64,000 nt of DNA. Source: Bacteroidaceae bacterium. Its GTDB lineage: Bacteria; Bacteroidota; Bacteroidia; Bacteroidales; Bacteroidaceae. The DNA lies in assembly GCA_017935785.1 (NCBI GenBank), contig JAGBGU010000016.1, positions 1-64,000 on the forward strand, read 5' to 3'. The stretch's first letter is position 1. The number at the start of each line of letters is the position of its first letter. Below the pieces are notes generated by a model that saw nothing but the letters and a program-made list of their open reading frames with translations, was not told the DNA's origin and did not search any database. The position numbers were made by a program, and so were the translations under genes. Below are positions 19,789-60,891 of this stretch, one piece after another.

Positions 19789-22700
19789 ATGCGCCTCGAC
19801 GAACTGACAGACTTATACCGGCTGCATCCGCAACTGCAAGCGTTGAACAGGCTGTTGCTTTCCGATGAAAGGACAGTACGCCTCAATGAAATTCAGGGCA
19901 GTTCCGTGCCTGTTCTTTTCTCCACCCTGATGAAGCACTTCAATTGTGCGCAGGACGTGCCGTATGTCTTTATTATGGATGACGAGGAGGAGGCAGGTTA
20001 TCTCTACCATGATTTTGTTCAGGTTTTGGGCGATGAAAAGGTGCTGTTTTTCCCAAGCAGTTTCAAGCGGGCGGTAAAGTACGGCCAACGCGATTCGGGC
20101 AATGAAATCATGCGTACCGAGGTGCTGAGCCGCATTCACGACGCCGCTTCGCTATTCATTGTTACCACACCCTCTGCCCTGTCGGAAATGGTTGTGACGA
20201 GAGAGAAACTGAACCAACAGACAATTTCGCTTTCAGAAGGCGAGCGGGTAGACATAGCGTTTATGCAGGAGACGCTCCTTAATCTTAAGTTCAACCGTGT
20301 GGATTACGTTTACGAACCCGGCCAATATGCCGTTCGCGGAAGCATTCTTGACGTTTTTTCGTACAGTTGCGAGTATCCCTTCCGGATTGACTTCTTCGGT
20401 GACGATGTGGACAGCATCCGCACGTTCGATGTCAATACGCAGCTTAGCGAGAAGAGGCTTGCTTCCGTCAATATAGTCCCCCAGCTCTCGGTGGAAGCAG
20501 AGAACCGTCAGTGTTTTCTCGAATTCCTTCCGCCTTCCGCCCGTCTCGTGCTGAAAAGCAAGGCCTATGTGCATGATGTGGTGGAGCGGATATTTCATGA
20601 CGGCTTTTTGCAGCAGGCCATTATTGCGGGCGAGGACAAAACCGAGTTGGAGGAATTTCAGGAGCGCGAAAAGCTTGCACGTGATACACTCTTGGTGCGC
20701 CCATCGTCGTTCCGTCTGCTTGCAGACCGCTTCCGTACCATAGAACTCAGTGGCGGTCAGGCGGATTCATCCGCAGACGTCCTCTCTTTCTCCACTCGCG
20801 TTCAGCCTGTCTACCACAAGAATTTTGACCTGATTTTCCAATCTTTTCAGGATTTTATGGCAAAGGGCTACAGACTGTATATCCTTGCCGACAGCGAAAA
20901 GCAGGCAGAGCGCCTAAGGCAGATTTTCGAGGACAAGCAGTCACACATCAGCTTCACTCCCGTAAAGCGCACATTGCATTGCGGTTATGTGGATGACAAC
21001 CTCAAGGCCTGTTTCTTCACAGACCATCAGATTTTTGACCGTTACCACAAGTATAACCTCAAGAGCGAGAAGGCGCATCGCGGAAGGGTGGCGCTTACGC
21101 TGAAGGAGATACAGCAGTTCGAGCTTGGCGATTATGTGGTACACATAGACCATGGCATTGGCCGTTTCGGCGGCCTTGTACGCATCCCCAACGGCGAGCA
21201 GATGCAGGAAGTCATCAAACTCATCTACAACCATGACGACATTGTCTTCGTCTCCATCCATTCCCTGCACAAGGTCTCCAAATATAAGGGACAAGAGGGC
21301 GAGCAGCCGCGCATCAGCACGCTTGGTACGGGCGCATGGGAGCGCATGAAGGAGCGCACCAAGAAGAAGATTAAGGACATTGCGCGCGACCTGATTCTGC
21401 TCTATAGCCGCCGGCGCGAGGAAAAGGGTTTTGCGTTCTCTCCCGACAGCTTTATGCAGCACGAGTTGGAGGCCTCGTTCCGATACGAAGACACGCCCGA
21501 CCAGCTTAAGACTACGCAGGACGTAAAACAGGATATGGAGCGCTCACGGCCCATGGACCGCCTTGTGTGCGGCGATGTTGGCTTTGGCAAGACCGAGGTG
21601 GCTGTGCGCGCCGCCTTCAAGGCCTGTGCCGACAACAAGCAGGTGGCCGTGCTTGTGCCCACCACCGTGCTGGCGTATCAGCACTACCGCACTTTCAGCG
21701 AGCGGCTGCGCGATATGCCCGTGAGCGTAGAATACCTCTCTCGTGCGCGCAGTGCCGCCAAGACAAAACAGATTTTGGAGGAACTGAAGGAGGGCAGGAT
21801 TAACATTATCATCGGCACGCACAAGCTCATTGGCAAGGGTGTCAAATTCCACGACCTCGGGCTGCTCATCATCGACGAGGAGCAGAAGTTCGGTGTCTCC
21901 ACCAAGGAAAAGCTGCGTCAGATGCGCGTAAATGTCGACACGCTGACACTCACCGCCACGCCCATACCCCGTACGCTGCAATTCAGCCTGATGGGCGCGC
22001 GAGACCTCAGCATCATACAGACTCCGCCGCCCAACCGTTACCCCATCCACACGCAGGTGTGTACCTTTAGCGCCGAAGTCATTGCCGAGGCCGTCAATTT
22101 TGAGATGAGCCGCAACGGACAGGTCTACATAGTGAATAACCGTATTTCCAATCTGCCCGACCTCGAGGCGCTTGTGCGCAAGCATGTCCCCGATGCCCGC
22201 GTGGCGGTTGGCCACGGGCAGATGCCGCCCGATAAGTTGGAGGACATCATCCTCGGTTTCAGTAATTACGACTATGACGTGCTCATCTCCACTACCATCA
22301 TAGAGAGCGGTATCGACATCCCCAACGCCAATACCATTATCATCAATTCGGCGCAGAACTTCGGTCTGTCCGACCTTCATCAGATGCGCGGTCGTGTGGG
22401 CCGCAGCAACAAGAAGGCCTTCTGCTATCTGCTGGCTCCTCCGCTGTCAGCGCTCTCTGCCGATGCACGCCGCCGTTTGCAGGCCATAGAGAATTACAGC
22501 GACTTGGGCAGCGGAATCCATATCGCCATGCAAGACCTCGACATACGCGGCGCGGGCAACCTCTTGGGCGCGGAACAGAGCGGTTTCATCGCCGATTTGG
22601 GCTACGAAACCTATCAGAAAATACTCTCTCAGGCCGTCCGTGAACTGCGCAACGACGAGTTTCAGGACGTCTTTGCCGAGGAGGTCAGGAGCGGCCGGAT

Positions 22701-23181
22701 AACAGAGGGGAAAGACTTTGTGGAGGATTGCCAGCTCGAGTCTGACCTTCCCATGTATTTCAGCGAGGACTATGTGCCCACCGCCAGTGAGCGCATGCTG
22801 CTCTATCGTGAACTTGACGGGCTGGAACGGCCCGAGGACGTGGATGCCTTCTGCCAGCGCATGAACGACCGTTTCGGGCCCATTCCGCGCGAAGGAATGG
22901 AACTTGTGCAGGTGGTGCGTCTGCGCCGTTTGGGGCGCTATTTCGGCGCGGAGCGGATAGTGCTGAAGAACGGTCGTATGCGGTTATATTTTGTGCAGAA
23001 TCAGGACAGTCCGTTCTATCAGAGTGCCGCCTTCGGGCAGATTATCCAGTTTGCCGCCGCCAATGTCCACCGCTGCAAGCTCGACGTGGTGGGCGGCCAT
23101 AACACGCTGCTGCTCATGAAGGTGCCTTCAGTCAGCGAGGCCGTCGGGCTGCTCACCCAAATCAGCGAAGTTCAGTCCTGA
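19789..23181 (+). CDS. mfd: Transcription-repair coupling factor
   Basis: The 1130-residue protein clears RNA polymerase stalled at DNA damage and recruits UvrA. UvrB-like N-terminal domains come first, including [20 protein letters not shown]. The RNAP-interaction domain ([23 protein letters not shown]) follows, then the RecG-like motor with Walker [19 protein letters not shown] box, TATPIPRTL, and the TRG motif region [15 protein letters not shown]. Length is normal for Mfd. The 3' end overlaps the convergent lipoprotein gene by ten bases. Confidence 0.97.
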
Positions 23182-23798
23182 ACTTCCACTGTTGTGAATC
23201 TGTTGCCGCGCCTGATGATGCGCCCTTCAGTGTGTGCGCCGTCACGGGGTATAACGATGCTGTCCTCCTCGGCTCGCGTAGCGGGCGAATAGTAGGGGAA
23301 ATGATAGTCACGCGGCCCATAGCAGTAGTAGGCGTTAAAGCCGGACCAGTCGTAATAGTCGGCCCATTTTTCCAGGTAGAAACTGTCGTAACTGTCAACA
23401 AAATAGCCCGCAAACACATTGTTGCTCATCGTGTACTCGCTGATGCTTGTGTTCAGCGTGCGGTCATACGGATAGTATAGACTTACTATGCCGTTCCTTA
23501 TTCGCCAATTAAAATAGAAGTATTGGTATTCGTACGGACCGGCGTCGTAGTAGTCAATCTGCCTGCCGGTGCCGCTGGTGGCAAAATCATGGTCGGGGAA
23601 GAACTCAATGCGCGTGTCATAGCAGTTGAAAGTATAGATGCGGCCGCGGTACTCGTATAGGTAATACATGCCCCAGTCGCCGCGCCACTTTCCTGTCAGT
23701 ACTCGTGATTGCATCACATCGTCGTCACAAGCTGTCATGCAGCAGGTCATCAGTGCGCCCGTAAGCAGCATAAACATGTTTCTTATCATCCTTCTCAT
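23172..23798 (-). CDS. Hypothetical lipoprotein, Tyr/Asp-rich
   Basis: The 208-residue protein has a lipoprotein signal (LMTCCMTACDDD, with lipidation expected at the Cys before DDD). The mature part is strikingly rich in Tyr and Asp, for example YYLYEYRGR, YDAGPYEYQYFYFNW and WADYYDWSGFNAYYCYG. Repeated TGKWRGDWGMYY-like strands suggest a small beta-barrel or lipocalin-like fold. I do not recognise the family. It is probably anchored in the outer membrane facing the periplasm. Its last ten bases overlap the end of mfd on the other strand. Confidence 0.75.
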   Translation of the reverse strand: MRRMIRNMFMLLTGALMTCCMTACDDDVMQSRVLTGKWRGDWGMYYLYEYRGRIYTFNCYDTRIEFFPDHDFATSGTGRQIDYYDAGPYEYQYFYFNWRIRNGIVSLYYPYDRTLNTSISEYTMSNNVFAGYFVDSYDSFYLEKWADYYDWSGFNAYYCYGPRDYHFPYYSPATRAEEDSIVIPRDGAHTEGRIIRRGNRFTTVEVQD

Positions 23799-23872
23799 AA
23801 TCGTTACTTTTTTTATTGTTTATGCTGCAAAATTATCAAGATTTACCTGATGCGCCAAGGGAATTTTCCTAT

Positions 23873-23912
23873 AAAAAAGGGGAAAAACCCTCCGCCACGA
23901 GGGATTTTCCCC
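23873..23912 (-). terminator. Terminator of the VirE-N/DUF3987 gene
   Basis: GGGGAAAA-a-CCCTC and GAGGG-a-TTTTCCCC pair around a six-base loop. In the minus direction the stem is followed by six T residues (plus-strand A run 23873-23878). It begins nine bases after the stop codon at 23921. Confidence 0.85.
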
Positions 23913-23920
23913 AATAATGG

Positions 23921-26227
23921 TTAGCATTTGGCGTAGCCCGTTTTGGTTCTGACTACGCGGCCTGCCTGCTTCCAACGTTTCAGCTGGCAGCTTGCCGTAT
24001 TGCGCTTTGTGTCTGGTTTTTCTTTTATCATTAGTTGAAAAACATCGTCGAGCGAGAATGCCGCGGGCAGTGCGGCATAGATTGCCTCGTTGCCGCCCGT
24101 GGCACGGCGGCCGCAGGGGGCGGCGGCGTAATTTTTGGCGGCGTAGGCGGCAGTGATGCGGTGCCGGAAGTAGCGCATGCTTTCGTCTATGAGGCTGTCG
24201 GCGATGGTTTCGTAATTATCCCGGCAGGCTTTGTTTTGCAGCGCCGACACAATGGGAAGCCATGCTTGCGGATTGCGCTTGAGCAGTGCCTCGGCGCCCT
24301 GATAGCCGTGGTCGGCCATGAGGCGCTCTGCCGCACGCACTAACAGCATGCAGACGGTCATGCGGAAGGCAGTAACGTGCGTGCGCATACGCGCCCGCGC
24401 CAATACTTTGTCCTGCTGTGCTTCTGCCTCTTGCCGGATGCCTTCCAGCCATTCCCCTGCCCAGTGTTCCAACTTGGGTAGTGCGGCCGTGCCGCACATC
24501 AGCGTCAGCAGGTGTGCTGTGCGCTGTATGTACTCCTTCTGTGCTCCCGTGAGCGGTTTGTGCGGCTCAAGAGGGGCGAAGGTGTTGTCCGGTGTGCTGG
24601 CTATGGCCATGCGGTTACATGTACCGTCCGTGACGTTTGGCACCATACGGTGCAGGGCATCTGGCGTTCCGCAGTACACTGCGTTCCACAGCAGCTGCGG
24701 TATGTGTGCATTGACCCCCTCCGCACCCACGGTTTCTCGCTCGTAAGGTGCGCCGTCGTATGCCTTACGCTGCATGGCAGTTACATCCTGCATGTTCGCC
24801 GCCATCCTGCTCGTGAATTCGTCCGCCTCCTCGGTATAGCTGAACGCGTGCTTGCCGCCTGTTTGCGACAGACGCGCACAGAGCTGCGGCAGTGTGGCGT
24901 TCACCGTTGGCATACGTATAACCCCTGCGGGCTTTGCAGGTTGCTCTTTTGCCGATGAGCCTGTACGGCGCTTCTTCTGCCGCCATTCCTCCTCGGCGGC
25001 CAACAGGGCGGCGTCGGCTGAGCGCAGTTCGGCAGTCCATGTGTATATGATGTCCGTCAGTGACGACTTGTTGCTGCCGCTCTCGCCGGTGATGAACGAA
25101 GTCAGATTAAGCGCTGTGCTTTTGCCGTTGTATGTTACATTCACTCCTGTGGCCAATGCGCCTACCATCGGCGCAAGTGCCGCCAAAAGGGGCATGTCCA
25201 TACTGCGGGGCAGTGCGCCGAGGCAGTGCCTTATGCTTTGCGGCAGCGTACGGCGCGAGAGGGTATAGGTGCGGCTGCTTTCCCGCAGCAGCTTTTCCAA
25301 TAGTGTACGGAGCTTGCTTGGCATGGCTGCGGGGCGGTAGTTGGCTGTTACGTTGTTTATAAGGGCATCAAGTTCGTCGGCGGCGAGCGTGCAGCCGTGG
25401 CAGGCCTGTCGAAGGATTTCGGCATTGCCCGTGAACCAGCTCATGGCCGTCAGAAAGCTGAACCACCGTGTGTTGCGCTCGCCCTCCTGCGGCAGGAGGC
25501 CGTCGTTGTACTGCTGCCACCATTTTTGCGATATTTCGGGCCAAGTGAAAGCAAGGCTTTTGTACAGCGGCTGCTCGTCGTGCGAAAGGTGTTCGCGCGC
25601 AGGAGCGGCGGGAGTGCCCGCAGGCTGTGCTTTGGCGTTGGTTTTTGGTTTCGCGCTTTTGGCTTCTTCTTCTTCGGGTACGTAAGGGCAGTCCTCCACC
25701 GCGAACACGTCGTCATGCAGATAAAGTAATGTACTGCTGTCTCCGCAGAAGAAGACGCGTGTGATGTCCTTTGCGCACATGTCGGGCTCGATGCCGAGTT
25801 TTTGCGCGGCAAGCAGCAGATTTTCGCTCTGGGGCTGCGTGGCGTCGGGGCGACGCATGATAATGTGCAGCCCTTTGCGTGTGCTCTGTAGAAAGAGTAT
25901 GGCGTGCTCTTCTTTGCTTGCCAGTATGCGTTGCGTGTCTTCCTCTTTTTTCTGCTGCCAGCCGGGGGCTGCGGTGTCGTAGTCGACATCCACCATAATC
26001 ATATTCGTGGGATACTGCTTGCTGCCCGCGAGCATGAAGCCGTTGTGCCCCGGGTTGCACTGTGCGCAGATTTGTACCTGCGCGCGCTTGCCGTTTGCGT
26101 CGCCCCGGAGCGCGGCTTGGCACGCGCTTTTGTTTTGCGCAGAATCGATGAGCGCGAGGAACTCTTGGCGGTTGTGAATGAGTGAGCAGACCTTCTGCCC
26201 CTCGTCGTTGACTGTTACTCTGTACAT
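23921..26227 (-). CDS. VirE-N / DUF3987 domain protein (primase-helicase-like)
   Basis: The 768-residue protein has an N-terminal BT4734/VirE-N-type domain (about 30-190), with the acid pair MIMVDVDYD and the block STRKGLHIIMR. A DUF3987 NTPase-like part follows with a P-loop GESGSNKSSL near residue 380 and YTEEADEF as a likely Walker B. The C-terminus has a winged-helix look (SCQLKRWKQAGRVVRTKTGY). Family relatives sit with HU-like and smalltalk genes in Bacteroidales, and this gene shares that neighbourhood. The biochemical role is unproven; the order of domains recalls primase-helicase proteins of mobile elements. The DNA is visibly GC-richer than the flanks. Confidence 0.8.
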   Translation of the reverse strand: MYRVTVNDEGQKVCSLIHNRQEFLALIDSAQNKSACQAALRGDANGKRAQVQICAQCNPGHNGFMLAGSKQYPTNMIMVDVDYDTAAPGWQQKKEEDTQRILASKEEHAILFLQSTRKGLHIIMRRPDATQPQSENLLLAAQKLGIEPDMCAKDITRVFFCGDSSTLLYLHDDVFAVEDCPYVPEEEEAKSAKPKTNAKAQPAGTPAAPAREHLSHDEQPLYKSLAFTWPEISQKWWQQYNDGLLPQEGERNTRWFSFLTAMSWFTGNAEILRQACHGCTLAADELDALINNVTANYRPAAMPSKLRTLLEKLLRESSRTYTLSRRTLPQSIRHCLGALPRSMDMPLLAALAPMVGALATGVNVTYNGKSTALNLTSFITGESGSNKSSLTDIIYTWTAELRSADAALLAAEEEWRQKKRRTGSSAKEQPAKPAGVIRMPTVNATLPQLCARLSQTGGKHAFSYTEEADEFTSRMAANMQDVTAMQRKAYDGAPYERETVGAEGVNAHIPQLLWNAVYCGTPDALHRMVPNVTDGTCNRMAIASTPDNTFAPLEPHKPLTGAQKEYIQRTAHLLTLMCGTAALPKLEHWAGEWLEGIRQEAEAQQDKVLARARMRTHVTAFRMTVCMLLVRAAERLMADHGYQGAEALLKRNPQAWLPIVSALQNKACRDNYETIADSLIDESMRYFRHRITAAYAAKNYAAAPCGRRATGGNEAIYAALPAAFSLDDVFQLMIKEKPDTKRNTASCQLKRWKQAGRVVRTKTGYAKC

Positions 26228-26607
26228 GTTCGTTCGTTTTTTGAATTTAATATTTTACGCAGTTGTTGCTGCCACTTCTCTTCCAGCTGCGGCTGCAGTT
26301 CGTCGCTTATCTTTTGCAGCTCCTGCTCGATACGTGTGTGTCCGCTCTTGCCCCCGCGGTAGCGCTCATATATATAGCCGCGCGTGGCCAGGTCAAAGTA
26401 GAAGTCCAGGTCGCTGACGGGGCGCGTTTGTGCCCATCTGTAATAACTGGCGGTTAGCGTGTTTATCAGTATCGGGTGGTCCTCGGGCCAGTACTGAGCC
26501 AGAAGCCTGCGGCACGCTTCTGGGTGGAAACAGTCAGTCATGCGAAGAATGTCTTCGTCGGTGACGGGTGCTGAGTCTGCGTGGTACGCATCATTAAATA
26601 CTTTCAT
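26215..26607 (-). CDS. Unrecognised small protein of the DUF3987 islet
   Basis: The 130-residue, mostly helical protein contains DILRMTDCFHPEACRRLL and a basic-acidic C-terminal helix (IEQELQKISDELQPQLEEKWQQQLRK). No known domain is recognised. Its 3' end overlaps the start of the VirE-N/DUF3987 gene by 13 bases, so both are translated from one message and probably work together. A minus-strand TAAATTTG (plus 26690-26697) is a candidate -7 box about 83 bases upstream. Confidence 0.65.
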   Translation of the reverse strand: MKVFNDAYHADSAPVTDEDILRMTDCFHPEACRRLLAQYWPEDHPILINTLTASYYRWAQTRPVSDLDFYFDLATRGYIYERYRGGKSGHTRIEQELQKISDELQPQLEEKWQQQLRKILNSKNERTCTE

Positions 26608-26657
26608 ATTTATAAAATTTTTTTTATTTTATTGTTATTACAACCTTTTTTTTCTCT

Positions 26658-26681
26658 AATCACAGCGGGCCCTCTGTGATT
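26658..26681. promoter_or_regulatory. Inverted repeat with GGGCCC loop in leader
   Basis: AATCACAG and CTGTGATT form a perfect 8-bp stem around CGGGCCCT. It lies between the candidate -7 box (26690-26697, minus) and the ATG at 26607. It could be an operator or a leader hairpin. The remainder of the 26608-26840 gap holds the terminator listed next and a purine-rich stretch (26720-26760). Confidence 0.45.
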
Positions 26682-26776
26682 TTCGAATGCAAATTTAGTG
26701 TATAATCTGCACACCGTGAAGGATTTCGTCCGGGAGGAACGGGAGGGACGGGAGAAAGTGAACTTTCTTTTTCATC

Positions 26777-26804
26777 AAAAAAAAAGCACCCCTTAAGGGG
26801 TGCT
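26777..26804 (-). terminator. Terminator of the 230-residue protein gene
   Basis: AGCACCCC-ttaa-GGGGTGCT is a perfect 8-bp stem with a four-base loop, followed in the minus direction by nine T residues. It lies 36 bases after the stop codon at 26841, so that gene is a separate transcript from the DUF3987 pair. Confidence 0.88.
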
Positions 26805-26840
26805 TATGTGTCGTGTTTTGTTTGTTTTTACTACTTACAG

Positions 26841-27533
26841 TTAGCCGTTATATTTGTCTTTAAGATACGTGCCGATTTTGTTTATCCAAGTCTTTACCTG
26901 CCCGTCGCGCTGAGCTGAGCCGTGCAGCGTAGTGCGAAACGCGCAGTGTTGCGTAAGAAACTCCCACAAGTGGGTGCCGCGGTTTTTGCGCAGCGTCTTG
27001 TCCGTTTCCGCCCAGCGCGCGTACAAAGCTAATATTTGCGCGTTTGTGGTATCCCTGGGGTCGGGGCTGCTGATAATTCGCTCTTCCATGGCGAAGGCAG
27101 CGAACACTTCTTCTCTGCGCTGCATCATTATTTTCTCGCGCGGGAAAAGCTTGCAGGCAGATGGCTTGTCTGTGTCAGTGGTGTCAGTCTGTGTCAGTCT
27201 GCCGCGCAGGCATATGCCCAACCACACGCGCAGCGCGTCGGCAAAGATAGCGTGCATATCATCGCTGTGCTCTGCTGCCGCGCAGCACAGGGCTTGTTGT
27301 GTTTGTTGTATATCATCCGCAAACCCGTGTGTGTGCCATTGGTCATATTGCCGCACTATTGTATTAACGAGGCGCACAAGTGCATCCTCGTCTGCCTCGT
27401 GCTGTGTCACCGCGCGCAGTATGCCGCGCGGGTGAAAGAAAACGCCGTCCTCGCGTGTAAGCACGCCCCAGTCTTTGTTCTCTATTGTTTGCGCGCGCAT
27501 GTGACACGCTATGCTATCATCCAGTTTTGCCAT
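26841..27533 (-). CDS. Unrecognised 230-aa protein of the DUF3987 islet
   Basis: The chosen start is the ATG at 27533 (MAKLDDSIACHMRAQ), because the 80 residues in frame upstream are Cys/His/Arg-rich nonsense read from the palindromic region and a TACATTTG -7 box lies only 21-28 bases before this ATG. The protein is helical, with RLTQTDTTDTD encoded by near-identical GTGTCAG repeats near 27175-27200. The C-terminal third (LALYARWAETDKTLRKNRGTHLWEFL) looks like a compact helical domain. No family recognised. It is divergent from the HU-like gene and shares its control region. Confidence 0.65.
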   Translation of the reverse strand: MAKLDDSIACHMRAQTIENKDWGVLTREDGVFFHPRGILRAVTQHEADEDALVRLVNTIVRQYDQWHTHGFADDIQQTQQALCCAAAEHSDDMHAIFADALRVWLGICLRGRLTQTDTTDTDKPSACKLFPREKIMMQRREEVFAAFAMEERIISSPDPRDTTNAQILALYARWAETDKTLRKNRGTHLWEFLTQHCAFRTTLHGSAQRDGQVKTWINKIGTYLKDKYNG

Positions 27534-27553
27534 TTTTTTGTTTTTTGTGTGTA

Positions 27554-27584
27554 CAAATGTAAGTATTTTATTGCATACATGCAA
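27554..27584 (-). promoter_or_regulatory. Candidate promoter of the 230-aa protein gene
   Basis: On the minus strand TACATTTG (plus 27554-27561) matches TAnnTTTG, and a TTG (plus 27582-27584) stands 20 bases upstream. The first 19-base palindrome (27600-27618) lies just beyond the -33 position, where a regulator could bind. Confidence 0.5.
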
Positions 27585-27599
27585 GTCATACGATGGCAA

Positions 27600-27729
27600 A
27601 TGTCGACAGTGTCGCCATCGAGAAAGTGTGTGTGTCACCCCTAAAAAAATTCTATTATATATAGATATATATAATAGGCAATATAAAGAAGACAGACACT
27701 GTGTTACAAAATGTCGACACTGTCGACAT
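27600..27729. promoter_or_regulatory. 130-bp dyad-symmetric region: two 19-bp palindromes round an AT palindrome
   Basis: Site A (27600-27618) reads ATGTCGACA-G-TGTCGcCAT with one mismatch. Site B (27711-27729) reads ATGTCGACA-C-TGTCGACAT and is perfect. A third palindrome, CTATTATATAT-AGAT-ATATATAATAG (27652-27677, perfect 11-bp stem), lies between them. Its centre, 27664.5, is exactly the midpoint of the two sites, so the segment is a large imperfect inverted repeat with matching outer and inner parts. It lies between the divergent 230-residue protein gene and the HU-like gene. It could be an operator pair that loops, an origin, or a resolution site. The remainder of the 27534-27957 gap holds the two promoters and the CCTCCCGAGG pair. 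Confidence 0.8.
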
Positions 27730-27779
27730 CGGAGGACATCAAAGCAGTTTGTCAGCGCGCGCGGACGGGGCAAAAATCA

Positions 27780-27818
27780 TTTTCCTCCCGAGGCAGTGGA
27801 TTTTTCCTCCCGTGGGAG
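27780..27818. repeat. Paired CCTC(C/G)CGAGG palindromes
   Basis: TTTTCCTCCCGAGG (27780-27793) and TTTTTCCTCCCGTGGGAG (27801-27818) are direct copies separated by seven bases. They resemble the pairs at 12783-12820 and 42796-42837 and lie 50 bases upstream of the HU-like promoter. Confidence 0.6.
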
Positions 27819-27868
27819 ACCAAAAAACAGCAAAACGGGCAAATAAGCGAAAATAATTTGGTTTTTAT

Positions 27869-27899
27869 TTTGATAAATCAAAATAAATCCATATCTTTG
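27869..27899 (+). promoter_or_regulatory. Consensus Bacteroidetes promoter of HU-like gene
   Basis: TTTG (27869-27872) and TATCTTTG (27892-27899) are separated by 19 bases, the textbook -33/-7 arrangement. The ATG follows 59 bases after the -7 box, leaving an A-rich leader. Confidence 0.8.
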
Positions 27900-27957
27900 C
27901 GGCAGATTTTTCATTAAACACATCAAAAAAACTAAAAATAAACTAAAAACTAAAACT

Positions 27958-28485
27958 ATGGCAATTAAACTTAAAGCAATTGAAAGAAACGTAGCCTTTG
28001 AGAAAGGCACGCAGAAGTGGGCTTTCGTGATGCAGCCCGAGTTGTACAGCCGCCTGAACGAACAGAAGGTGGTGCAGGAAGCCGCCCTGCGCAGCGGCAT
28101 CGGCAAGGGAGCCGTCAGCGCAGCATGGGAAGCCATCGGCGACGTAATCCGCGCGTGGGCAACCGAGGGCCACAGCGTGGCAGTGCCCGGACTGGGAACC
28201 ATGCGATTCGGCGTGCGTGCCGAAGCAGTGGAGAACGTGGAGGACGTGAACAGCACGCTCATCACCAGCCGCCGCGTAATCTTCACCCCCAGCACCGAGA
28301 TAAAGGACGAGCTGGCAAAGACCGCCATCAGCATCACCTGTTACGACCGCAACGGCAACGTCATCAAGCAGGTAACCAGCGACGACGACGGCAATGTGGA
28401 CAACGGCGAAGAGCCCGACCCTACGCCCAGTAATCCAACGCCCAACCCCGATGATGAGGAGGGTGACGGAGGATTGGCGGGGTAG
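27958..28485 (+). CDS. HU-like DNA-binding protein with acidic Gly tail
   Basis: The 175-residue protein has an N-terminal HU/IHF-like fold (about 1-125): VVQEAALRSGIGKGAVSAAWEAIGDVIRAW forms the dimerisation helices and GHSVAVPGLGTMRFGV the entry to the beta arms, as in Bacteroidales HU-family proteins. The C-terminal 35 residues are an Asp/Glu/Pro/Asn-rich tail ending GDGGLAG. The second HU-like protein (60319-60891) ends in the same GLAG after its own acidic stretch. The gene has a consensus promoter and is followed by the smalltalk peptide, its usual partner. It probably organises DNA at, or regulates, its own islet. Confidence 0.88.
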   Translation: MAIKLKAIERNVAFEKGTQKWAFVMQPELYSRLNEQKVVQEAALRSGIGKGAVSAAWEAIGDVIRAWATEGHSVAVPGLGTMRFGVRAEAVENVEDVNSTLITSRRVIFTPSTEIKDELAKTAISITCYDRNGNVIKQVTSDDDGNVDNGEEPDPTPSNPTPNPDDEEGDGGLAG

Positions 28486-28525
28486 GACCAAACGCACCCA
28501 AGCCCCCCTCTGCCCATTCGGGCAT

Positions 28526-28952
28526 CTCCCCCTCTATGGGGAGAACTGAGGGGGAACAGGGGGCTAACGCTCGCTAACGGCTAATGGCCTTTCATACACA
28601 CAAAGTAATTGTGAGCCAAAGCATAATGTCATCCTGAATTTAGTTCAGGATCTCACCGCGAGCCATCACTAATCCTTCTCCGCGGACAGATGCTGAAACA
28701 AAAGTTACCTTTGTTCAATTTGCTCACGCTCTGCATAGCTCAAGCAAGCTTGGCTCTGCTCTCGCTTAGCCGCAAATTTCAGCATGACAATACAAGGAGC
28801 TAACGGCCAACAGCCAAAGTAAAACAAAACTAAAACCACACCCTCCAAAAAAGTCTCCCCATAGAGGGGGAGAATTAGTGGGGGTCTTTAACCCTTAATC
28901 AACACCCCCCGACAAAACAAAGTCTCCCCCTTTGGGGAGATTTTGAAGGGGT
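28526..28952. repeat. Three CTCCCC-GGGGAG dispersed repeats
   Basis: Hairpins CTCCCC...GGGGAG occur at 28526-28543, 28855-28872 and 28924-28939, each followed by a short A/T stretch and a G run (GGGGG, GGGGGTC, GGGGTC). Copies two and three are direct repeats starting GTCTCCCC and ending GGGTC. They resemble REP-type interspersed repeats. Together with the long inverted element at 28627-28789 they fill the gap between the HU-like and smalltalk genes. Confidence 0.7.
28627..28789. repeat. MITE-like element with TGTCATnCTGAA ends
   Basis: The left end TGTCATCCTGAA and the reverse complement of the right end, TGTCATGCTGAA, match with one difference, giving a 163-base unit with terminal inverted repeats. 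Just inside the left end ATCCTGAA-TTTAG-TTCAGGAT is a perfect 8-bp hairpin. The right half is rich in GCTC/AGC steps. No frame of useful length is present. Similar GTCATnCTGAA elements are dispersed in many Bacteroidetes genomes, from memory. Confidence 0.65.
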
Positions 28953-28971
28953 CCGTAGTCAAATTATGATT

Positions 28972-29067
28972 ATGAGAAACAAAGAAACCTGGAAAATAAT
29001 CATCCAAACCGTAATCAGTATTCTGTCGGCCATTGCCACTACGCTCGGCCTTAACTCCTGCCTGTAA
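28972..29067 (+). CDS. Smalltalk-type membrane micro-protein, 31 aa
   Basis: The 31-residue peptide reads MRNKETWKIIIQTVISIL and then SAIATTLGLNSCL. A basic/Trp start and one hydrophobic helix ending in a near-terminal Cys are the hallmarks of the smalltalk family of Bacteroidales. An alternative in-frame ATG at 28966 would add two residues. Smalltalk genes normally lie between an HU-like gene and an N-acetylmuramoyl-L-alanine amidase gene; here the HU-like gene is present but a patatin gene takes the amidase position. It is probably an inner-membrane peptide of unknown role. Confidence 0.85.
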   Translation: MRNKETWKIIIQTVISILSAIATTLGLNSCL

Positions 29068-29084
29068 CAGGCAGCTCTAATGAT

Positions 29085-29121
29085 AAAGGCGGACCCCACT
29101 GAACGAGGCCTGCCTTTTTTT
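29085..29121 (+). terminator. Terminator after smalltalk gene
   Basis: AAAGGC and GCCTTT pair across a 21-base loop that also carries GG/CC contacts, followed by a seven-T run. It ends the HU-like/smalltalk unit before the patatin gene. Confidence 0.65.
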
Positions 29122-29177
29122 GCGCTCCTTTAACACACATTATATTATATAATACGCGGCATATGAAAATATATTCC

Positions 29178-29185
29178 TATCTTTG
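29178..29185 (+). promoter_or_regulatory. Candidate -7 box of patatin gene
   Basis: TATCTTTG fits TAnnTTTG 30 bases before the ATG at 29215. No TTTG stands at the -33 position, so the match rests on one element. Confidence 0.45.
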
Positions 29186-29214
29186 CAGCACACACACACA
29201 ACCCATCACCAAAG

Positions 29215-30255
29215 ATGACAGACAAGAAAAAGAATGTGGCGCTGGTGCTGAGCAGCGGCGGGCCGAGAGGATTTGCTTACATAGGGGCGATAGAGTCGTT
29301 GCAGGCGCATGGCTACACAATCACCTCGGTGGCAGGCACAAGCATGGGTTCGCTCATTGGGGGCATATACGCCGCCGGCAGGCTGCCCGAGTTCAGGGAA
29401 TGGCTCTACAGCCTTGACGCGTGGAAAGTATTCTCGCTTATGGACCTCAGCGTGGCCAAGAACCACATTGTCAAGGGCGAACGCATCATTGAGGCCATGA
29501 AGGAGATTGTGCCCGACGTGATGATTGAGGACATGGCCATTCCCTACTGTGCGGTGGCCACCGACCTGTACACGGGCGAAGAGGCGGTGTTTGACCGCGG
29601 ACCGCTCTTTACGGCCATTCGGGCCTCTATCAGCATCCCCTCGCTGTTCCGACCCGTGGACTACGGCCACACCACCCTGATTGACGGCGCCGCCGCAAAC
29701 TGTCTGCCCCTTGACAGGGTAAGCAGACGGGGCGACGACATATTGGCGGCGTTTGACGTGAACGACGTAAACGTGGCGTCCCTGAGGCAGATACTTGCCG
29801 ACGAACACAGGGCAAGGATGGCGGACAACGCCTTCCATGACAGCAAACGCGCGGAGATAAGAGAAGCGTGGGAGGAGCTGAGAGAAGGCACGGACATCAG
29901 CCTTGTGAAGCGACTGAAAAGGGTGGGGAGCCGCAGCATGGGGGTGCTGAAGGATGTTATGCACTACCAACGGCAGTTTGACGAGGACACGGCGTTGGAC
30001 GTGGGCGAGAACTACTACGACCTGCTCGACCGCACCTTCAATCTGATGACACACCGCATAACGGAACTGACGCTGCAACTGCACAAGCCCGACATCTTGG
30101 CGCGTATGCCCTTTGACAGCTATGGCGAAATATCCGACTATGCCCGCGCTTACGAGATATCGCAGATAGGCAGAATACTTATGGACGAAGCCATTGAGGA
30201 ATGGGAGAACAGGACCCTTAATGGGGAAGACAACAGCCAACGGACTATAGACTAA
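29215..30255 (+). CDS. Patatin-like phospholipase
   Basis: The 346-residue serine hydrolase of the RssA/NTE group has the oxyanion loop SSGGPRGFAYIGAIE near residue 14, the nucleophile motif GTSMG near 43, and the catalytic Asp in DGAAANCLP near 160. Together these form the Ser-Asp dyad of patatins. No signal peptide is seen, so it acts in the cytoplasm or on the inner leaflet, probably on phospholipids or lysophospholipids. It has its own candidate promoter and a terminator after it, so it is monocistronic although it adjoins the smalltalk gene. Confidence 0.9.
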   Translation: MTDKKKNVALVLSSGGPRGFAYIGAIESLQAHGYTITSVAGTSMGSLIGGIYAAGRLPEFREWLYSLDAWKVFSLMDLSVAKNHIVKGERIIEAMKEIVPDVMIEDMAIPYCAVATDLYTGEEAVFDRGPLFTAIRASISIPSLFRPVDYGHTTLIDGAAANCLPLDRVSRRGDDILAAFDVNDVNVASLRQILADEHRARMADNAFHDSKRAEIREAWEELREGTDISLVKRLKRVGSRSMGVLKDVMHYQRQFDEDTALDVGENYYDLLDRTFNLMTHRITELTLQLHKPDILARMPFDSYGEISDYARAYEISQIGRILMDEAIEEWENRTLNGEDNSQRTID

Positions 30256-60318: not shown

Positions 60319-60891
60319 TTACCCGGCCAGACCTTCGTCATCATCCTCGCCGCTGGGAGGGGTATTGCCAGTGCCGCCAGTGTCAGGCACGTCAGGGGTT
60401 GGGGTTTCATCCTCAGCATTGTCCTCCTCGCCGGGCTTAATGGTGGCCTCTTCGTTCAGGCGCTCTTTTTCAGCCTTTCTTGCAGCAGCCTGAGCTTCGC
60501 GGGTTCCTACATACTCAAACACACAATCGTTGAGCAGGTCCTTGAACTCGTTGCTGGGCTCCCAGTGCACTTTTACCTGTTTAATCAGCCCAGTGCTGAA
60601 GCTCTCCGCATTGTCCGCGCCATTGCTGATGAGGGTTACCGAGAAGGCGCCAAGGTCGCCAAGCTGAACCTTATTGCCCAGGAGCAATTGCTCTCTGATA
60701 CAGGAAGTTAGCTCTGTGGTCACCGCCATGATGTCGCCCTTGCTATATTTGCTGGCATGACCCGCCATGTGGGCTGCCATCTTACCCAGGTCGAGCAGCT
60801 GATAGTACTGGGCAACGGGATAAGTTTTGTTCCCCTTTTCGGGAAATCCGGGTTTGGCCAGTCTGAGGGCCAATGAATAAGGTATTGCCAT
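60319..60891 (-). CDS. Second HU-like DNA-binding protein, GLAG tail
   Basis: The roughly 190-residue protein has an N-terminal HU-like fold: MAIPYSLALR start, VAQYYQLLDLGKMAAHMAGHASKYSKGDIMAV helices and GNKVQLGDLGAFSVTL strand, as in the Bacteroidales HU-family. A Lys/Arg/Glu linker leads to an acidic Thr/Pro/Asp tail ending EDDDEGLAG. The first HU-like protein ends in the same way. Start at 60891 (MAIPYS) is preferred over an ATG at 60900 and a TTG at 60915 by comparison with MAIKLK of the first gene. The iteron-like GTTAC region (61124-61357) lies upstream. Confidence 0.8.
   Translation of the reverse strand: MAIPYSLALRLAKPGFPEKGNKTYPVAQYYQLLDLGKMAAHMAGHASKYSKGDIMAVTTELTSCIREQLLLGNKVQLGDLGAFSVTLISNGADNAESFSTGLIKQVKVHWEPSNEFKDLLNDCVFEYVGTREAQAAARKAEKERLNEEATIKPGEEDNAEDETPTPDVPDTGGTGNTPPSGEDDDEGLAG

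Follow-up and report, generated by a model that had tools for sequence, protein, structure and literature searches.

The site described here lies in a chromosomal islet within a 64,000-nucleotide stretch of a Bacteroidaceae genome (GenBank assembly GCA_017935785.1, contig JAGBGU010000016.1, positions 1–64,000), hereafter the window, where it occupies part of a 424-bp intergenic region between two divergent genes. The gene to its right, on the forward strand, encodes a DNA-binding protein of the HU-HIG family (27958..28485; profile match to PF18291). On the reverse strand to its left is a cargo ORF of 230 aa (26841..27533), which matches no family and has no relative among 200 related genomes. 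Further along the same strand follow a small ORF of 130 aa (26215..26607) and the 768-aa primase-helicase (23921..26227), the proposed initiator; the small ORF lies just upstream of the primase-helicase, and its slot is filled by unrelated proteins in other islets. A second HU-like ORF of the window (60364–60804, reverse strand) is 24% identical to the HU of the islet.

The primase-helicase combines a VirE_N/BT4734-like AEP primase, a DUF3987 P-loop ATPase and a C-terminal winged helix. The DUF3987 match exceeded the cut-off in the genome search and was missed by plain hmmscan. The N-terminal AEP primase domain (residues 1–175; 25703..26227, reverse strand) carries the DxD (82/84), GxH (119–121) and KDxxR motifs, the last as KDITR at about residues 153–157, and the same alignment places the Walker A lysine at K387 and ends in a winged-helix-like tail. 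This winged helix (residues 705–768; 23924..24115, reverse strand) is the proposed reader of the repeats, with its recognition helix at residues 742–754 (23966–24004, reverse strand). The AF2 prediction is confident only at both ends of the protein, and its ATPase region is poorly modelled. A Foldseek search with the full model returned mostly noise; VIA-align resolved both end domains, matching the N-terminal region to RSF1010 RepB' (Z 7.1), LigD-Pol and CAPP PrimPol, and the C-terminal region to winged helices of Fur-type proteins, ORC and MCM, although both alignments are modest (Z about 5–7). The predicted combination of AEP primase, P-loop ATPase and winged helix would suit an initiator.

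A symmetric site in the intergenic region

The first-pass annotation had described two 19-base palindromes and a central AT palindrome in this region, and all three were recovered at the same coordinates. The right arm (27711..27729; ATGTCGACACTGTCGACAT) is perfect, consisting of two perfect tandem units of the 8-bp word TGTCGACA with a period of 9; the left arm (27600..27618; ATGTCGACAGTGTCGCCAT, one mismatch) repeats this arrangement in inverted orientation, with two TGTCGACA-type units, the second of which reads TGTCGCCA. Since TGTCGACA is itself palindromic, a palindrome and a two-unit iteron array are equivalent descriptions here. Between the arms lies an AT-rich palindrome (27652..27677; CTATTATATATA-GA-TATATATAATAG), a candidate unwinding or cruciform element, whose arms measure 12 bp around a 2-nt loop, slightly above the 11 bp first given. 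Its centre coincides with the midpoint, 27664.5, of the two arm centres (27609 and 27720), as had been noted, and the gaps between it and the arms are both 33 bp.

This symmetry is real and not a product of chance. In 3000 Markov shuffles of the 424-bp intergenic region, no 19-nt inverted repeat with one mismatch or none arose, and a perfect palindrome with an arm of at least 9 appeared in 29. With up to two mismatches, the window motif occurs at just these two places in the 2.95-Mb genome, and an Rfam scan of the region returned only sub-threshold chance matches. The site is also placed between two predicted promoters. The consensus of the Bacteroidales -7 box is TAnnTTTG; the HU gene has a match to it, TATCTTTG (27892..27899, forward strand), about 160 bp from the right arm, and the divergent 230-aa gene has another, TACATTTG (27554..27561, reverse strand), with the left arm directly upstream.

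Recurrence of the layout with locus-private words

A motif search of 200 relatives did not find the word TGTCGACA at homologous loci; its one match was an unrelated coding sequence in genome G043. The resulting impression that the site is not conserved was dropped once architecture was compared. The same layout recurs in about 30 Prevotellaceae loci: an HU-HIG gene, inverted arrays around an AT palindrome of 24–52 bp, cargo, and the primase-helicase. HU is transcribed divergently from the remaining islet genes, and a small ORF before the primase-helicase is sometimes present. The arms are imperfect arrays, and each locus has its own word, such as GATGACG(TCATC), TGTTAAC, TTACTCACT, GTTATAA, GGTTACAT, GTGTCAAA, TGTTGCAA, GCGCTTACAA and others. 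Within a locus the two arms match with a median Smith-Waterman score of 21, against 9 between loci, a difference reached in 0 of 100,000 permutations. At homologous loci the architecture holds, whereas the word changes and the spacing varies. The rule proposed in the first-pass annotation, that homologues lacking the palindromes would expose the symmetry as accidental, would mislead because the layout persists under changed words.

The site accompanies the primase-helicase. In 80 loci from named genomes, AT palindromes numbered 11 upstream of the DUF3987 gene and 0 in 555 kb downstream of it, and the arrays were made of GTCA-type units, e.g., GGTCATTTGGTCA, AGTCATTAGTCA and GTGTCATGAGTGTCA. 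A fixed criterion (AT palindrome score of at least 10, or flank match of at least 18) was applied to the fetched loci, in which 61 HU ORFs were matched by HMM. Of the 32 HU loci that have a primase-helicase in divergent orientation, 21 had the site by this criterion and the other 11 did not. Where at least 5 kb upstream of HU was visible and no primase-helicase was seen, the site was found at 2 of 13 loci; one of these two has a primase-helicase further out, and at the other the contig ends too early. Other DUF3987 proteins, mostly of integrase-style elements, had neither HU nor the site (0/18 loci). Upstream of HU at L048 (G113:C1) there is a long inverted repeat (CCACAGTGTCCCGCGTCCACTGGAACCG) whose arms have no AT palindrome between them, possibly a different form of the site. 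Contigs from short-read assemblies were seen to end at or inside AT-rich palindromic stretches at L249 (G077:C34) and L250 (G032:C54). Site counts in draft genomes are probably too low because short-read contigs stop at the sites.

The genome of the window contains a second copy of the islet on contig C58, with an HU that is 94% identical, a remnant of the primase-helicase and TTTTGCA-type arrays. Upstream of HU in this copy (L036) lies a KilA-N/Bro-looking ORF, cargo of the decayed islet, and the HU start is preceded by long low-complexity intergenic phrases (CCATTAGCTGTTAGCCATTGG, AAACTCTAAACTC) that are common to several HU paralogues.

The distance from the site to the initiator gene is 1.4–8.9 kb, with the cargo between. 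Many cargo proteins belong to no family, and several of the recognised cargoes are restriction-modification systems: a type I system with Fic proteins (L046), type IIG enzymes (L093 and L122), FokI with two D12 methylases (L109), an EcoRII-like system (L067) and DpnII with a D12 methylase (L192). Also found were HIRAN-domain proteins (L089, L106, L139 and L152, the last being a locus of the rumen isolate Xylanibacter ruminicola Ga6B6), a polyvalent-protein kinase, an M78 peptidase and a CdiA C-terminal domain. At the orthologous loci L139 and L141 the site and the primase-helicase are kept, and the intervening DNA is of different length and content. In genome G032 (L250/L251; contigs C54 and C60), the chromosomal place that holds the islet of the window (mfd-lipoprotein to patatin; window 19789–30252) is occupied by an oppositely oriented islet, with a primase-helicase of 20% identity, ATTTCAG arrays near two facing contig ends, and an HU promoter that is kept although the HU gene is lost. 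The cargo difference at L139/L141 and the islet swap in G032 indicate that islets and cargo turn over.

A plasmid or phage origin of the islet gained no support from plasmid, phage and viral-contig searches. The primase-helicase had no match in 72,556 plasmids; the profile of its main clade (A2) had none in the 2.9 million viral contigs of IMG/VR, where the A1 profile gave one distant match; and a phage search with the primase-helicase gave two unannotated fecal scaffolds. No tyrosine integrase (PF00589) was found on the 68.6-kb contig of the window (C46) or on C58, C55 and C39, and neither clear ends of the islet nor target-site duplications could be made out.

Co-variation of the word with the primase-helicase

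Array similarity follows the identity of the primase-helicases across 30 site-bearing loci (Spearman 0.735; 0 of 2000 Mantel permutations). The correlation falls with distance from the centre of the site, to 0.31 at 85–170 nt and 0.07 at 170–255 nt. It holds among 19 representatives below 72% identity (rho 0.565; 0/2000) and is weaker among 11 representatives below 60% identity (rho 0.28; 45/2000). On the protein tree, primase-helicases with GTCA words form one clade, those with TGTnnCA words its sister clade, and those with GTTACA words a third. HU as the reader of the word was rejected, as the word does not co-vary with it (rho -0.10 at 16 loci, against 0.43 for the primase-helicase at the same 16). 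HU and primase-helicase lineages are themselves uncorrelated (rho -0.06). The ORF beside the primase-helicase, also considered as a reader, comprises several unrelated protein types and gave a rho of 0.16.

The word also co-varies with two residues of the recognition helix. Within the GTCA clade the base preceding GTCA varies, and among the strongest columns of the protein are Lys753, associated with TGTCA (p 8e-6), and Gln746, associated with AGTCA (p 8e-5). GGTCA pairs with Arg746 and Arg753, with the single exception of L192, which has Cys at 753. Contacts of Gln with adenine and of Arg with guanine are textbook cases. With duplicates removed, Gln746 sorts 23 of 23 loci by AGTCA, with four independent changes, and Lys753 sorts 22 of 23 by TGTCA; the independent switches for the two residues number 4–5. 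The tree for this test was built without the winged helix, and label simulations kept the number of changes equal. Helix positions reached the observed fit in 0 of 1000 simulations, and the best position anywhere in the protein matched it in 0.022 and 0.031 of them. P217, in a low-confidence unstructured linker, also fits the A class perfectly, a fit taken as chance, in keeping with the value of 0.022 from the whole-protein simulation. Word classes were assigned from the DNA sequence, manually at several loci. Column 753 had already been seen, as a K/R pattern, in an initial scan of all loci that mixed in false arrays through loose detection of GTCA arrays, before the scan was repeated with site-verified classes and phylogenetic control.

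The code covers the GTCA clade only, and the window, with the word TGTCGACA and S746 and K753 in its helix, is a single case; its nearest relative, L040, also has S746/K753, yet a different word. At L181, in the 5294 region, the left arm has mostly TGTCA units and the right arm GGTCA units; this mixed-word site is possibly an intermediate in a word switch. From these patterns, we propose the C-terminal winged helix of the primase-helicase as the reader of the word.

A proposed initiation site and its relation to known systems

The shared layout, the co-variation of the word with the primase-helicase and the recognition-helix code lead us to read the 130-bp region, with a probability of about 0.7, as an iteron-type initiation site, either a replication origin or a replication-like loading site, of a chromosomal cargo islet. 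Short repeats in arrays stand beside an AT-rich stretch, and co-variation indirectly matches the repeats to the proposed initiator, which the islet itself encodes. The primase-helicase of the islet would bind both inverted arrays with the C-terminal winged helix, melt or extrude the central AT palindrome with the ATPase domain and make primers with the N-terminal primase domain, so that copying starts at the site; HU probably helps to bend the DNA. Co-variation is what points to the binding step, whereas melting, priming and replication or amplification of the islet are suggested by the domains and by precedent. The first-pass annotation had seen in the region a control or replication centre, possibly an origin. 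The recurrence of the layout at homologous islets and the co-variation of the repeats with the primase-helicase favour this view, in which replication itself is the conjectural part.

The main rival is an autoregulatory operator, where either the primase-helicase, by its winged helix, or a partner represses or loops the divergent cargo and HU promoters and no replication starts. This reading fits the position of the site, which has divergent promoters on its two sides and a left arm that directly precedes the cargo -7 box; paired symmetric operators with a fixed midpoint suit looping, and the same winged-helix co-variation would be expected. However, the reader is a primase and P-loop ATPase and no simple repressor, an operator has no need for a long central AT palindrome, and the HU -7 box lies some 160 bp beyond the right arm; we therefore consider a pure operator unlikely, though it deserves to be kept in mind. 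With divergent promoters on both sides, the proposed initiation site may also have a second role in autoregulating cargo and HU.

A site of recombination, resolution or cargo exchange would fit the uncorrelated HU and primase-helicase lineages, which suggest that the two halves re-assort near the site, and the differing cargo between the conserved site and the conserved DUF3987 gene at L139/L141. Yet the contig of the window has no tyrosine integrase in the PF00589 search, the arms are imperfect arrays and not identical crossover sites, and the winged-helix co-variation would be left unexplained, which makes this reading very improbable. We give hardly any credence to the two ligands originally suggested, the HU-like protein and the 230-residue protein. 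Adjacency speaks for them, but HU proteins of 94% identity adjoin different words in the same genome, the word does not co-vary with HU, and the layout persists at loci where the 230-aa ORF is absent. An accident or a decayed inverted insertion, with which the uniqueness of the motif in the genome would agree, is refuted by the recurrence at homologous loci with private words, and the shuffling test likewise opposes it.

More tentatively, and at slightly less than even odds in our judgement, Prevotellaceae chromosomes may carry several copies of an integrase-less islet, some with restriction-modification systems, every one owning a private origin orthogonal to the others; word and helix would switch together through an amino acid–base code, allowing several islets to co-exist within one cell and amplify independently. 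The proposal offers a function for the intergenic dyad beside a common and unexplained Bacteroidales gene set (HU-HIG, VirE_N/DUF3987) and ties this set to defence cargo. It also supplies a testable code for origin choice by a primase-helicase, in which Arg or Gln at 746 and Arg or Lys at 753 are set against G, A or T before GTCA. If replication is borne out, the islets would constitute a new class in gut and rumen bacteria, carrying defence genes and amplifying themselves without an integrase, and short-read contig ends at the sites would be easier to explain.

In SaPIs, specificity is private to the island, and inverted iterons surround an AT-rich core. In both SaPI Rep and SCCmec Cch2, the C-terminal domain recognises the iterons of the origin (PMC7581432), and the replication proteins of SaPIs and P4 combine primase and helicase activity (PMC7145576). 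The site of the islet would resemble these SaPI, P4 and SCC initiator–origin pairs in its working. As in SaPI/PICI elements, where an island-encoded helicase reads a short-iteron origin through its C-terminal domain and an AEP primase is involved (PMC7581432), the islet is predicted to have a helicase with a C-terminal DNA-binding domain in the same kind of arrangement as Rep. In contrast, the SaPI origin lies directly downstream of rep and the site of the islet 1.4–8.9 kb away with cargo between, and the islet belongs to Prevotellaceae, uses the DUF3987 family and has no integrase match (PF00589) on the contig of the window. SCC/SCCmec elements are likewise chromosomal cargo cassettes with primase-helicase functions and a C-terminal domain that binds intergenic iterons (PMC7581432), but they have ccr recombinases and CCPol-MP, whereas the islet encodes a single fused primase-helicase together with HU, and the iteron word is hypervariable in the islet. 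The PICMI satellites of Vibrio share a small island size, a DUF3987-type primase and restriction-modification or other defence cargo (PMC10803314); they are defined by an integrase, AlpA and Fis, unlike the islet, whose contig has no tyrosine integrase by PF00589. The domain make-up is that of the BT4734-like or VirE_N-DUF3987 primase-helicases of mobile elements, for which the available portion of the source gives DUF3987 as a predicted helicase and describes neither an origin nor a DNA code (PMC5862659). The 18 other DUF3987 loci examined differ from the islet in having no such site. Herpes simplex oriS, with an AT-rich palindrome between inverted initiator boxes, is alike in architecture only, without homology, the islet being bacterial and its initiator a different one. 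Initiator–iteron origins of chromosomal islands are already known; new to the literature, as far as it was searched, are the islet type, its hypervariable word, the residue–base code and the placement of a dyad origin-like site at a distance from the initiator gene.
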